A program made the translations under genes and the position numbers. DNA of 64,000 nucleotides from Cognatitamlana onchidii (GTDB lineage: Bacteria > Bacteroidota > Bacteroidia > Flavobacteriales > Flavobacteriaceae): contig NZ_SRWZ01000006.1 in assembly GCF_004804355.1 (NCBI RefSeq), positions 124,001 through 188,000 on the forward strand, written 5' to 3'. This document shows, in pieces, positions 10,771 to 59,993 of this stretch (positions are counted from its first letter, which is position 1; every line of letters starts with the position of its first letter). Under the pieces are notes generated by a model. It ran no database searches. It was not told the DNA's origin and was given only the letters and a program-made list of their open reading frames with translations.

Positions 10771-11337
10771 CTATTTGCCATTAAAGCTATTCATAGTATT
10801 ATTTATACCTGCTAGGGCAAAGGATTTTATTAGTTCAGCAGATGTTTTTAATCGCTCTTCGAGTCTTTCCGACTCTTCACTAGTCCACTCACCTAAAACA
10901 TAATCTACTTGTCTGCCTTTGCTAAAAGCATCGCTAATACCAAATCTAAAACGGTTGTATTTCGTGGTGTTCAGTTTATCTTGAATATCTTTTAAGCCAT
11001 TATGCCCGCCATCGCTACCTTTGGTTTTTAGCCTGATACTTCCAAAAGGCAGATTTAGGTCGTCCGTAATAATTAGTAAGTTTTCTAATGGGACTTTCTC
11101 TTTTGTTAACCAATATAAAACGGCTTTACCGCTCAGGTTCATATAGGTATTAGGCTTCATAAAAATAAAGGTTCTGCCTTTTAGCTTATATGTGGTTACA
11201 TCACCAAGTTTTTGAGTCTCAAACGTAAGACCTTCCTTCATAGCAAAATAATCTAATATTTTGAACCCAATATTATGCCTTGTATTTTCATATTTTTCAC
11301 CAATATTCCCTAACCCGACTATTAAAAATTTTTTCAT
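10771..11337 (-). CDS. pth: Peptidyl-tRNA hydrolase
   Basis: Releases tRNA from peptidyl-tRNAs that drop off the ribosome. It begins MKKFLIVGLGNIGEKYENTR, with the conserved N and His of the active site in NTRHNIGF, then MKPNTYMNLSG and DDLNLPFG with the catalytic Asp. It is 188 residues from the ATG at 11337, which has AGAGGA 9-10 nt upstream. A frame extending to an ATG at 11403 would add 22 residues; some flavobacterial Pth proteins carry such an extension, so the longer start is not excluded. It follows rplY after a terminator. Confidence 0.95.
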   Translation of the reverse strand: MKKFLIVGLGNIGEKYENTRHNIGFKILDYFAMKEGLTFETQKLGDVTTYKLKGRTFIFMKPNTYMNLSGKAVLYWLTKEKVPLENLLIITDDLNLPFGSIRLKTKGSDGGHNGLKDIQDKLNTTKYNRFRFGISDAFSKGRQVDYVLGEWTSEESERLEERLKTSAELIKSFALAGINNTMNSFNGK

Positions 11338-56958: not shown

Positions 56959-58857
56959 ATGAGTGATGCCTTAAAACACGAATGTGGAATAGCCGTTATC
57001 AGACTTTTAAAACCATTAGAATACTACAAGGAGAAATACGGTAGTGCATTTTATGGTGTAAATAAAATGTATTTAATGATGGAGAAACAGCACAACCGTG
57101 GTCAAGACGGAGCTGGATTTGCAAGCATTAAATTAGATACGCAACCAGGACAACGCTATATAAGCAGAGTACGTTCTATTGCCCAACAACCTATTCAGGA
57201 TATTTTTGGCCAAATAAATGATCGTGTAAATAAAGAGTTTAAGGCCCACCCAGAATATAAAGATGATGTTGCTGCTCAAAAAAGAAACATTCCATATATA
57301 GGCGAAGTTTTATTAGGCCACGTGCGTTATGGTACTTTCGGAAAAAATAGTGTAGAAAGCGTTCATCCTTTTTTAAGACAAAATAATTGGATGCACAGAA
57401 ATTTAATCATGGCTGGAAACTTTAACATGACCAATGTTAAGGAACTATTTTCTAACCTGATTGAACTAGGTCAGCATCCAAAAGAATATACAGACACCAT
57501 TACTATAATGGAGAAGATAGGGCATTTCTTAGACGATGCTGTTAGTAAAATTTATAAAGACCTTAAAAAAGAAGGCTATAACAAAAGACAAGCTTCCCCA
57601 CTTATTGCTGAGCGCTTAAAAGTTGCCAAAATACTTAGAAGAGCAGCTAAAAACTGGGATGGAGGGTATGCCATGGCGGGATTAATTGGTCATGGAGATG
57701 CATTTGTTTTAAGAGATCCTGCTGGAATAAGACCTGCCTATTACTACAAAGATGACGAAGTGGTAGTAGTTGCCTCGGAACGCCCAGTAATTCAAACAGT
57801 ATTTAATGTAAACTTTGAAGATGTTAAAGAGCTAGAGCCTGGCCAAGCCATCATCACCAAAAAATCCGGAGAAGTTAGACTTAAACAAATTTTAGAGCCA
57901 CTAGAGAAAAAATCTTGTTCTTTTGAGCGTATTTATTTCTCGAGAGGAAGTGATGCCGAAATCTATCAGGAACGCAAAATGCTTGGTAAGCTATTAATGC
58001 CAAAAGTATTGGAAGCGATTAACAACGACACAAAAAATACGGTGTTTTCCTATATTCCAAATACAGCGGAGACCTCATTCTTTGGAATGATTGAAACAGC
58101 TGAGGCATTCATCAATAAAACAAAAACACAAGCCATACTTAATGGCCAGCGATCTTTATCAGCAGCTAAAGTTACGGAGATTTTGTCTGAACATGCCCGT
58201 GTTGAAAAGATTGCCATTAAAGATGTCAAACTAAGAACGTTTATAACGGAAGACAGCAGCAGAGACGATTTAGTTGCTCACGTATACGATGTGACATACG
58301 GAGTTATTAAACCTAATGACAATTTAGTTATTATTGACGATAGTATTGTACGAGGAACTACTTTGAAAAAGAGTATTTTAAAGATGCTAGACCGCTTAAA
58401 CCCTAAAAAGATTATTGTCGTGTCTTCTGCTCCACAAATACGCTATCCGGACTGTTATGGAATTGACATGGCACGACTTGAAGATTTAATAGCCTTTAGA
58501 GCTGCCCTGGAACTACTTAAGGACTCGGGTAAATACGATGTAGTGGAAACTGTTTATAATAAATGTGTTACTCAAACAGACTTAGAAGACAAATTCGTAC
58601 AAAACTTTGTAAAAGAAATATACGACCCATTTACGGATGAACAAATTTCTGATAAAATATCTGAATTGTTAAGTGATGACAGCATCAAGGCCGAAGTGAA
58701 AATTATTTTTCAACCAGTAGAAAACCTACATAAAGCCTGTCCAGAGCATTTAGGAGATTGGTATTTCACTGGAAACTACCCGACCGTTGGAGGTAATCGT
58801 GTGGTAAACAGAGCTTTTATTAATTTTTACGAAGGAAACAAAGAACGAGCCTATTAA
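56959..58857 (+). CDS. Amidophosphoribosyltransferase (long PurF form)
   Basis: A class II glutamine amidotransferase plus PRPP transferase of 632 residues, longer than typical PurF (about 470-505). Cys9 in HECGIAVIRL would become the N-terminal nucleophile after removal of an eight-residue propeptide. The glutaminase half has QHNRGQDGAGFAS and VLLGHVRYGTFG. The PRPP loop is VIIDDSIVRGTTL. It resembles a second long PurF-like protein of Bacteroidota; whether it makes phosphoribosylamine or another product is not certain. Confidence 0.8.
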   Translation: MSDALKHECGIAVIRLLKPLEYYKEKYGSAFYGVNKMYLMMEKQHNRGQDGAGFASIKLDTQPGQRYISRVRSIAQQPIQDIFGQINDRVNKEFKAHPEYKDDVAAQKRNIPYIGEVLLGHVRYGTFGKNSVESVHPFLRQNNWMHRNLIMAGNFNMTNVKELFSNLIELGQHPKEYTDTITIMEKIGHFLDDAVSKIYKDLKKEGYNKRQASPLIAERLKVAKILRRAAKNWDGGYAMAGLIGHGDAFVLRDPAGIRPAYYYKDDEVVVVASERPVIQTVFNVNFEDVKELEPGQAIITKKSGEVRLKQILEPLEKKSCSFERIYFSRGSDAEIYQERKMLGKLLMPKVLEAINNDTKNTVFSYIPNTAETSFFGMIETAEAFINKTKTQAILNGQRSLSAAKVTEILSEHARVEKIAIKDVKLRTFITEDSSRDDLVAHVYDVTYGVIKPNDNLVIIDDSIVRGTTLKKSILKMLDRLNPKKIIVVSSAPQIRYPDCYGIDMARLEDLIAFRAALELLKDSGKYDVVETVYNKCVTQTDLEDKFVQNFVKEIYDPFTDEQISDKISELLSDDSIKAEVKIIFQPVENLHKACPEHLGDWYFTGNYPTVGGNRVVNRAFINFYEGNKERAY

Positions 58858-58959
58858 TTAGGATATTCTTAATATTTAACGTTTAAACCGCAAATAACGT
58901 ATTTCACCCCATAAATATGTTATTCGTCTAAAAAATATTCAGATTATCTAAAATACACA

Positions 58960-58967
58960 TAACTTGG
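58960..58967 (+). promoter_or_regulatory. -7-like box (TAACTTGG) for the first twin RNA
   Basis: One mismatch to TAnnTTTG, at the same position relative to the repeat as the perfect box of copy 2, 5 nt before its first base. Confidence 0.45.
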
Positions 58968-58970
58968 TCT

Positions 58971-59045
58971 CACCATAACATAAGTAGGTTAAGTTCATGG
59001 TAGATTTGGGGCAAAAAAAGGTGAACGCTTGTTCGCCTTTTTTTA
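58971..59045 (+). ncRNA. Twin small RNA candidate, copy 1
   Basis: About 75 nt. It begins with a hairpin ACCATAAC (58972-58979) / GTT-C-ATGGT (58993-59001). A single-stranded segment with TTTGGGGCAAAAAAA follows, then the terminator stem GGTGAAC / GTTCGCC with a 4-nt loop and a run of eight Ts. It has no reading frame. Copy 2 repeats nearly the whole unit 214 nt downstream. There is no known family I can name. Confidence 0.6.
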
Positions 59046-59173
59046 TGCGATTTAGTTTCCATCTAATTTACCCAAATGCTTATACAGTTCATCCCTTTAA
59101 AAGTGCGCTAACTCGCTTAAGCCAATAATTGCGCCGTTCAACTAAAATATTTTAACAAACTCTATAAAGCATA

Positions 59174-59181
59174 TATCTTTG
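59174..59181 (+). promoter_or_regulatory. -7 box (TATCTTTG) for the second twin RNA
   Basis: Perfect TAnnTTTG, 3 nt before the repeated core of copy 2. Confidence 0.55.
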
Positions 59182-59184
59182 ACT

Positions 59185-59259
59185 CACCATAACATAAGTA
59201 GGTTAAGTTCATGGTAGATTTGGGGCAAAAAGGTGAACACTCGTTCACCTTTTTCATTT
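59185..59259 (+). ncRNA. Twin small RNA candidate, copy 2
   Basis: Repeats copy 1: CACCATAACATAAGTAGGTT and the following bases are identical through the GGGGCAAAAA stretch. The terminator is GGTGAAC / GTTCACC, now a perfect 7-bp stem, followed by TTTTTCATTTT. Compared with copy 1 the G-U pair is replaced by A-U, so the helix is preserved. The two A's missing in the linker and the loop (ACTC instead of GCTT) are the other differences. It lies about 85 nt before the end of sod on the opposite strand. Confidence 0.6.
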
Positions 59260-59287
59260 TATAACAATTATCATTCCAAAGCATAAA

Positions 59288-59321
59288 AAAATCGTCTAGA
59301 AATTTCTTTCTAGACGATTTT
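59288..59321 (-). terminator. Terminator after sod
   Basis: A 15-bp perfect inverted repeat AAAATCGTCTAGAAA / TTTCTAGACGATTTT with a 4-nt loop. On the minus strand TTTTTT follows. It is 23 nt past the sod stop. Confidence 0.9.
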
Positions 59322-59343
59322 AACGTTCTAATATTATTTATGC

Positions 59344-59952
59344 CTACTTAGCTTCAGCGTAGCGTTTTTCAACTTCGTTCCAGTTAATTACATTAAAAAA
59401 AGCACTAATATAATCCGGACGACGATTCTGATAATTCAGATAATAAGCGTGTTCCCATACATCTAATCCTAAAATTGGTGTACCGCCACAACCAATGCCT
59501 GGCATTAATGGATTATCCTGATTTGCTGTTGAACAAATTTCAAGTTTACCCCCTTCGTGAACACATAACCAAGCCCAACCTGAGCCAAAACGTGTAGCTG
59601 CAGCTTTGCTAAACGCAGCGATAAATTCGTCTTTAGACCCGAAAGTAGCTTCAATAGCATCTTTTAAATCTCCAGAAAGATACCCTCTATCCTCAGGGTT
59701 CATAACCGTCCAAAACAATGAGTGGTTAAAAAAGCCACCTCCATTATTTCTCACAGCTCCATTATCCATATCCAGATTCGACAAAATGTCTTCAATAGAT
59801 TTTCCGTCTAAATCGGTTCCTGAAATTGCATTATTTAAATTATTAGTATAGCCTTGATGATGTTTTGAGTGGTGTATCTCCATGGTGCGTGCATCCATGT
59901 GAGGCTCTAAAGCATCGTAAGCATATCCTAATTTCGGTAATTCGAAAGCCAT
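59344..59952 (-). CDS. sod: Iron/manganese superoxide dismutase
   Basis: Converts superoxide to peroxide and oxygen. At 202 residues, it has [14 protein letters not shown] (His ligands), the [11 protein letters not shown] segment with the second His, and [15 protein letters not shown] with the Asp and His ligands. The Fe versus Mn preference cannot be told safely. The ATG at 59952 was chosen: an in-frame ATG at 59988 would begin inside the -7 box. Confidence 0.96.
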
Positions 59953-59985
59953 AATTATTTGTTTTAAATTAATTTTTAAATTCAT

Positions 59986-59993
59986 CAAATTTA
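59986..59993 (-). promoter_or_regulatory. -7 box (TAAATTTG) for sod
   Basis: Perfect TAnnTTTG on the minus strand, 34 nt upstream of the sod ATG. Confidence 0.55.

Follow-up and report, generated by a model that had tools for sequence, protein, structure and literature searches.

A predicted family of tandem small RNAs in Flavobacteriaceae with complementarity to the start of a small-protein message

What do two short, closely similar units in the gap between a purF-like gene and sod encode, and on what might they act? They were noticed in an initial annotation of this DNA, and the observation is real and extends further than first seen. From their sequences we consider it probable that they belong to a new family of ~70-nt, tandem, trans-acting base-pairing small RNAs (sRNAs), which would most likely block translation initiation on the mRNA of a small ORF.

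Anatomy of the predicted twin sRNA genes

The window, by which we mean the whole 64,000-nt stretch of DNA that was analyzed, contains two predicted RNA genes on the plus strand, at 58972-59044 and 59186-59254, recognized from the sequence and a repeat search. They lie 214 nt apart from start to start and have the same 44-nt core, ACCATAACATAAGTAGGTTAAGTTCATGGTAGATTTGGGGCAAA, in agreement with the initial annotation, which had described two small-RNA-like units with a shared core at this spacing. The genes, their signals and their neighbors are as follows.

56959-58857, plus strand: purF-like gene (amidophosphoribosyltransferase-like), upstream neighbor on the same strand (ORF, TIGR01134, GATase domains)
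58923-58928, plus strand: putative proximal upstream promoter element of copy 1, TTCGTC (position peak in 343 copies)
58960-58967, plus strand: -7 box of copy 1, TAACTTGG (TAnnTTTG-type, offset as in the family)
58972-59044, plus strand: sRNA copy 1, predicted transcript of ~73 nt with 5′ hairpin, linker and terminator (sequence, fold, covariance model)
59013-59044, plus strand: terminator hairpin and U run of copy 1 (inverted repeat I3, fold)
59137-59142, plus strand: putative proximal upstream promoter element of copy 2, TTCAAC (position peak)
59174-59181, plus strand: -7 box of copy 2, TATCTTTG (TAnnTTTG-type, offset as in the family)
59186-59254, plus strand: sRNA copy 2, predicted transcript of ~69 nt (sequence, fold, covariance model)
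59227-59254, plus strand: terminator hairpin and U run of copy 2 (repeat search and signal scan)
59288-59321, minus strand: likely sod terminator, a strong 15-bp hairpin with U run (signal scan)
59344-59988, minus strand: sod gene (Fe/Mn superoxide dismutase), downstream convergent neighbor (ORF, profile matches)

The purF-like gene matched GATase domains and scored 129.5 bits with TIGR01134, under the cut-off of that model (350). The gap between it and sod (58858-59343) has the 486 nt first reported, but it is not otherwise empty, as the opposing sod gene probably has its terminator there. In either copy, the -7 box starts 12 nt and ends 4 nt 5′ of the core, which bears out the earlier claim of a promoter-like box at the same offset. 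By its sequence the box is of the Bacteroidota type; sigma-70-type sites were not in excess in a promoter scan (4 found versus 3.5 expected). Since the TAnnTTTG-type consensus box of F. psychrophilum is located at -12 to -5, according to the part of the source available to us (PMC9723704), the predicted first base of the transcripts is the A of ACCAU (58972 and 59186). Further upstream, TTCGTC of copy 1 is one of two direct repeats that lie ~20 bp apart in the family.

At the 3′ ends, the terminator hairpins of the two copies differ from each other and are private to them, as first described. An ungapped repeat of 115 nt is 78% identical between the copies, so the 69 nt 5′ of the core are weakly alike (~63%, promoter elements included), and the stretch between the copies, which had been called unrelated, is not unrelated throughout. 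Both copies fold more stably than shuffled sequences (200 shuffles; z = -4.1 for copy 1 and -3.2 for copy 2). Their scores with model R1, 95.3 and 87.4 bits, respectively, are matches by construction, both copies being in the alignment of the model. The one stem change between them, U-G to U-A, is consistent with the earlier statement that the helix is kept; being one-sided, with no double change, it is not the compensatory change that had been claimed. The anatomy evident here, with promoter and intrinsic terminator signals around each copy, is that of an autonomous short transcription unit, and we infer that both copies are transcribed.

Conservation and distribution of the family

A BLAST search of other genomes for the core, a check that the initial annotation had recommended, found it in 27 of 60 genomes; these include the own genome, that is, the genome of the window, which has two core copies at the threshold used. 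A covariance model built from 60 copies matched 33 of 395 genomes of the phylum under stricter filters, which lose weak matches. All 33 belong to the own family, of which 41 members are listed in the phylum draw, and they include 22 of the 23 genomes of genus g57, probably Flavobacterium (we infer the genus name). A pattern scan of named genomes added carriers; among the matches listed were Zobellia, Maribacter, Winogradskyella, Cellulophaga, Aquimarina, Tamlana, Algibacter, Flavobacterium and others, with one to six copies per array.

The arrays lie mostly between purF-like and sod genes. Among 148 core-bearing loci, for which the fetched stretches often end early and a few overlap, homologs of both purF and sod were present in 105, purF only in 27, sod only in 12 and neither in 4. 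Where purF and sod have come to lie apart, each neighborhood retains a copy: the copies are ~220 kb apart in one genome (G014; L190 and L010) and ~18 kb apart in another (G007; L021 and L201). The array is thus mostly bound to one locus, and the dispersed element that the initial annotation had named as a refutation is in the main not what is seen. We also rejected a mobile-element reading, since the locus is mostly fixed and the family was absent from the viral contigs (exact pattern) and the plasmid and phage collections (blastn) that were searched. A few copies occur at other loci (L191, L192 and L200). L200, from genome G005, has two copies on the same strand, at 2469-2540 and 11093-11164, ~8.6 kb apart; by eye we recognized no purF or sod ORF there, and the genes between the copies include an ORF of 1633 aa.

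Conservation was followed in two sets. In the 60-copy alignment (A1; 64 copies with 4 duplicates merged, L028 left out), double changes occur in 7 of 20 consensus pairs. The terminator stem accounts for 6 of these, and some of its pairs also have broken cells; the 5′ hairpin varies chiefly from A-U to G-U. The second set comprises 343 distinct copies chosen by an exact pattern, by which the 24 core bases inside the pattern are conserved by construction. The core bases outside it are near-invariant (CCATA, 96-100%; TT.GGG, 99-100% at the fixed bases), and promoter conservation is independent of the picking pattern. The -7 box stands at a single offset in 286 of the 343 copies and within 3 nt of it in 329, with no recognized box in 13. 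A TTYRTC-like element has two position peaks ~20 bp apart, with starts near -68 and -48, in a flank that is otherwise poorly conserved.

The proposal that the copies are independent small-RNA genes is supported by these data, as copies across genera have their own promoters and terminators, the -7 box stands at one offset and conservation is focused on the core. By eye, the first copies of close relatives have first-copy terminators in common and the second copies second-copy terminators (overlapping loci L002 and L029-L031 were omitted when copies were compared across loci), so the tandem copies look old and separately maintained.

In several loci (L017, L018, L020, L022, L027, L160, L164, L167 and L169), the copy nearest sod or last in the array forms a separate class. 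In Maribacter/Zobellia-like genomes this class reads GCCATAGC...TTTATGG...GGGACGAAAAGGG and has very similar promoters, ending in ACAATACCAGTAATTTAG or ...GTATTTTAG; its sequence suggests a differently regulated paralog.

Complementarity to a small ORF beside scoB

Weak BLAST matches of the 3′ half of the core in seven genomes led to a partner locus, which lies between scoB (3-oxoacid CoA-transferase B; TIGR02428 in the own genome) and a convergently oriented gene for an ABC-transporter ATPase. Sequence complementary to the sRNA is followed there, on the strand of scoB, by a small ORF ending in ...LTKKVFML or similar, which in the own genome is G000:C10:101406-101534, MNIATNLPELPTNEESKFKETLKENLQFFRSLYYLTKKIFML. 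The first pass covered 30 scoB loci, 14 of them read by tblastn. We read 23 unannotated small ORFs of this kind, 29-46 aa long (the first row of their alignment, A2, is without the initial M); the least alike, in L227, L229 and L235, were grouped with the others on position and C-terminus. The small ORF is under purifying selection, as judged from dN < dS in all seven pairs compared (dN 0.08-0.37, dS 0.61-1.83). The four small proteins that were compared with Pfam, NCBIfam and PADLOC matched no model in any of them.

The small ORF was found in 26 of 50 sRNA-bearing and in none of 9 sRNA-less family genomes (Fisher 0.003, phylogeny ignored), all counts being taken over related genomes. The 26 of 50 refer to genomes with a scoB interval read or a profile match and include one disrupted frame (G005); G015 is counted as sRNA-bearing via a diverged copy alone (L028, 47.6 bits), and G020, with the sRNA, has no profile match and a scoB interval outside the reading. 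In the first draw alone, the figures were 24 of 26 with the sRNA and none of 4 without it (Fisher 5.5e-4, phylogeny ignored). The sRNA is present without the small ORF in 24 genomes: G007, G031 and 22 of g57. None of the g57 genomes shows the small ORF at scoB, and we found no convincing copy elsewhere in them. The small-ORF mRNA is therefore not the sole reason for which the sRNA is conserved, and further roles must exist.

The predicted duplex between the core and the small-ORF region of the own genome has an energy of -38.4 kcal/mol (-30.2 in the narrower stretch from -70 to +30), compared with a mean of -18.3 (sd 3.6) and a best value of -30.8 kcal/mol for 386 start regions of the same genome, taken from a 464 kb sample that includes the window. 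When both RNAs were allowed to fold, the gain was -24.8 for the own pair versus -18.2 for the best of 329 backgrounds; it was -33.6 to -37.3 for L203, L204 and L213 and -20.4 for L222, and L219 (-17.9) fell short of the best background. Fifteen leaders (-70 to +30) averaged -36.1 with the real core and -17.0 (sd 1.5, best -21.7) with 300 shuffled cores. Five Maribacter-type leaders averaged -26.9, a value reached by none of 300 shuffled cores (mean -18.6). For whole scoB intervals, 10 of the 16 scored beat all 100 shuffles; the other six were L206 and L212, which have no ORF in the stretch, L208, L215, L219 and L220.

Duplex energy alone was rejected as a target test for being unspecific: in a 130-nt scan of the 464 kb, two sites (-42.7 and -40.0) gave stronger duplexes than the own small ORF and a third came close (-38.0). 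A pattern search of the own genome for near-perfect targets gave 9 matches, two of them the sRNA copies, versus 9 in the backward control; it missed the own small ORF because the sites of the latter are too diverged. In g57, none of 153 start regions stood out, those of metalloprotease-like genes beside scoB included, and the two top rows of the ranking were ORFs antisense to the sRNA itself. A 204-aa response-regulator gene of the own genome (L264:14664-15275, minus strand, contig C4) ranked second of the 386 start regions (-29.9). Its leader, ATCCCAAAACTAAGAATTTAACCTCATG, follows a TAGATTAG box and a TTTCAACGA element, and a partial homolog in G017 (L313) retains TTTAACCTATG; having few homologs, it was not accepted as a second target and remains a lead.

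A site of -20 kcal/mol or better that covers the AUG and ends at +3 to +8 is present in 17 of 19 leaders (the exceptions are L205 and L235); in 12 of the 19 it outranks every other site. In the background, 108 start regions had a best site that strong, and 14 of them showed the same register. In the own genome, the AUG-covering site (-24.4, with a long unpaired stretch) is weaker than a site just inside the ORF. Typically, CAUAAGUAGG of the sRNA is opposite CCUACUUAUG of the mRNA, start codon included, and GAUUUGGGG opposite CCCAAAUC, just downstream of where the mRNA is predicted to begin (L229). One site lies inside the ORF, over N-L-P/S codons, and its Leu codon is CTA in 14 of 15 cases versus 36 of 317 other Leu codons, taken from the small ORFs and the 12 scoB genes sought (Fisher 7e-12; the rows are related). 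This bias inside a pairing site points to a codon-level constraint on the RNA as well as on the protein. What the sequences show directly is the gene anatomy and its conservation, the locus, and the complementarity with its shared start-codon register.

Proposed function, alternatives and known systems

On the reading that we prefer, each copy would be transcribed from a TAnnTTTG promoter of its own, which is of the housekeeping type and preceded by an activator-like direct repeat, and the predicted transcript would begin at the 5′ hairpin (ACCAU...AUGGU) and end at its private intrinsic terminator. The hairpin would open on contact with the mRNA, and the loop, CAUAAGUAGGUU, and the linker, GAUUUGGGG, would base-pair with the small-ORF mRNA (29-46 aa, beside scoB) at its leader and its start codon. 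By covering both, the pairing would prevent initiation. Being complementary to the start of a small-protein message, the sRNA would probably switch that message off, and the several copies might serve dose. The family shows the conserved complementarity to an mRNA encoded elsewhere that is expected of a trans-encoded base-pairing sRNA. The bacterial group is described as being without Shine-Dalgarno sequences, in the portion of the source seen (PMC9723704). The Hfq (PF17209) and RRM_1 (PF00076) models found no match in the own genome, with positive controls; no known helper protein is thus at hand, and pairing would be unaided or involve some other helper.

The main rival holds that the small-ORF leader is chiefly a sponge, whose tandem sites titrate the multicopy sRNA from other targets. 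Sites of -20 kcal/mol or better number two in 7 of 19 leaders and three in 5, although a single site would do to block a start codon; the sRNA occurs in more genomes than the small ORF; and by eye, many leaders other than those of the Maribacter type have an upstream element resembling the one at the sRNA promoters. Against this, the site onto the AUG is the feature common to the leaders, present also in the single-site leaders L207, L229, L220, L221 and L222, the small ORF is itself under purifying selection and no other target has been established. We regard the sponge as unlikely to be the main role.

An arrangement like a type I toxin-antitoxin pair acting in trans, with the sRNA array as antitoxin of a small toxic peptide, seems rather improbable to us. 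It would account for sRNA complementarity to the site at which translation of a 29-46-aa peptide begins, for the hydrophobic/basic C-terminus of that peptide, and for the lack of the small ORF from the nine sRNA-less family genomes read. The peptide, however, has no clear transmembrane stretch as judged by eye, the four proteins tried matched nothing in the databases named above, the two genes are at separate loci, and the sRNA is retained in G007, G031 and 22 g57 genomes where the small ORF was not found. Similarly improbable is that the RNA acts by binding and titrating a protein, in the manner of 6S or CsrB-type RNAs, with pairing secondary. About 40 nt of core are near-invariant, beyond the usual seed, the hairpin is conserved, and no target found accounts for the core in g57; yet the small-ORF leaders contain antisense counterparts to most of these 40 nt, with the codon-level constraint described.

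Rfam covariance models, run as had been suggested, assigned the window sRNAs to no family at its curated threshold. FopS (RF04319) gave 21.3 bits with copy 1 versus a gathering threshold of 56, and neither the window nor 9 related loci reached the gathering score; we rejected Rfam membership because the sub-threshold matches look mostly terminator-driven. On inspection by eye, a 43.9-bit sub-threshold FopS match in a genome of the same order (G053; L032:1501-1569) runs antisense to what is probably an ATGAAAAACACA gene start, and we did not count it as an sRNA; the FopS model may thus catch start-region antisense in general.

FopS and GibS of Bacteroides work in a similar way to that proposed here, pairing near start codons, according to the available parts of the sources (PMC11697453, PMC7366714). 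The window family is also like them in occurring in Bacteroidota, in being multicopy (as FopS is) and in ending at an intrinsic terminator, and UUCAUGGUA..AGAUUU resembles the FopS model consensus, a similarity that is not significant. Unlike FopS, it is mostly in tandem at one locus, and the mRNA partner so far identified belongs to a small ORF instead of susC. That the family is a distant member of the GibS/FopS family, which blocks SusC start codons, is very improbable, since the sub-threshold match aligning UUCAUGGUA..AGAUUU beside the terminator reflects a local similarity to the model consensus that shuffled sequences also reach (1308 of 20000 for the window core, 276 of 20000 for the Maribacter variant and 8949 of 20000 for the g57 variant), the 5′ seed part described as single-stranded in FopS is a predicted hairpin here, and the association of FopS with the RRM protein RbpB has no counterpart in an own-genome PF00076 match (Bacteroides control positive), even though both RNAs are multicopy and FopS acts near start codons, as far as the source was available (PMC11697453).

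Closer in phylogeny are the Rfp sRNAs of F. psychrophilum, found by RNA-seq, among which Rfp18 has a third stem-loop and metalloprotease targets, in the part of the paper seen (PMC9723704). Rfp18 was the only Flavobacteriaceae sRNA with reported targets to turn up in the literature searched, and as described it differs from the window family in that stem-loop and those targets. The Rfp sRNAs and the window family are both found in Flavobacteriaceae, and with members in 22 of 23 g57 genomes, one Rfp RNA may belong to the family.

Multicopy sibling sRNAs, namely Qrr, OmrA/B and the Neisseria sibling sRNAs, are named in the available part of PMC11697453. Like the window family, these RNAs have several near-identical copies and a common pairing region. 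Compared by description, the window family differs in its arrays of up to six copies in one gap (among the matches listed) and in a partner leader with repeated sites. A multicopy base-pairing sRNA is thus a known kind; the family, the locus-bound array and the multi-site small-ORF partner were not found in the literature searched.

Taken further, our preferred reading of translational block would become a dedicated RNA/small-protein circuit of Flavobacteriaceae, which we put forward tentatively, as possible in its full form. Up to six near-invariant sRNAs, mostly from one locus, would work without Hfq or RRM proteins; a 29-46-aa protein would be controlled via up to three tandem antisense sites in the leader and first codons; and the leader would be target and sponge at once, with both partners sharing an upstream activator element. 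The family combines a core that hardly varies with a locus that is mostly fixed, and it brings with it a concrete mRNA partner and a new small protein. Start-codon regulation without a Shine-Dalgarno sequence, and perhaps without Hfq, becomes directly testable in array carriers such as Zobellia and Maribacter.

Further upstream elements were also seen around scoB. Maribacter-type small-ORF promoters (L219, L220, L221 and L222) have direct repeats like TTCACAACA, ~21-22 bp apart, in place of the TTTCATCGA element. Downstream of scoB in g57 (L242, L243 and L249), repeated TTTCATCGATTA/TTTTATCGATTA-like elements, ~21 bp apart and of the type found at the small ORF, precede a gene for a secreted-looking protein.
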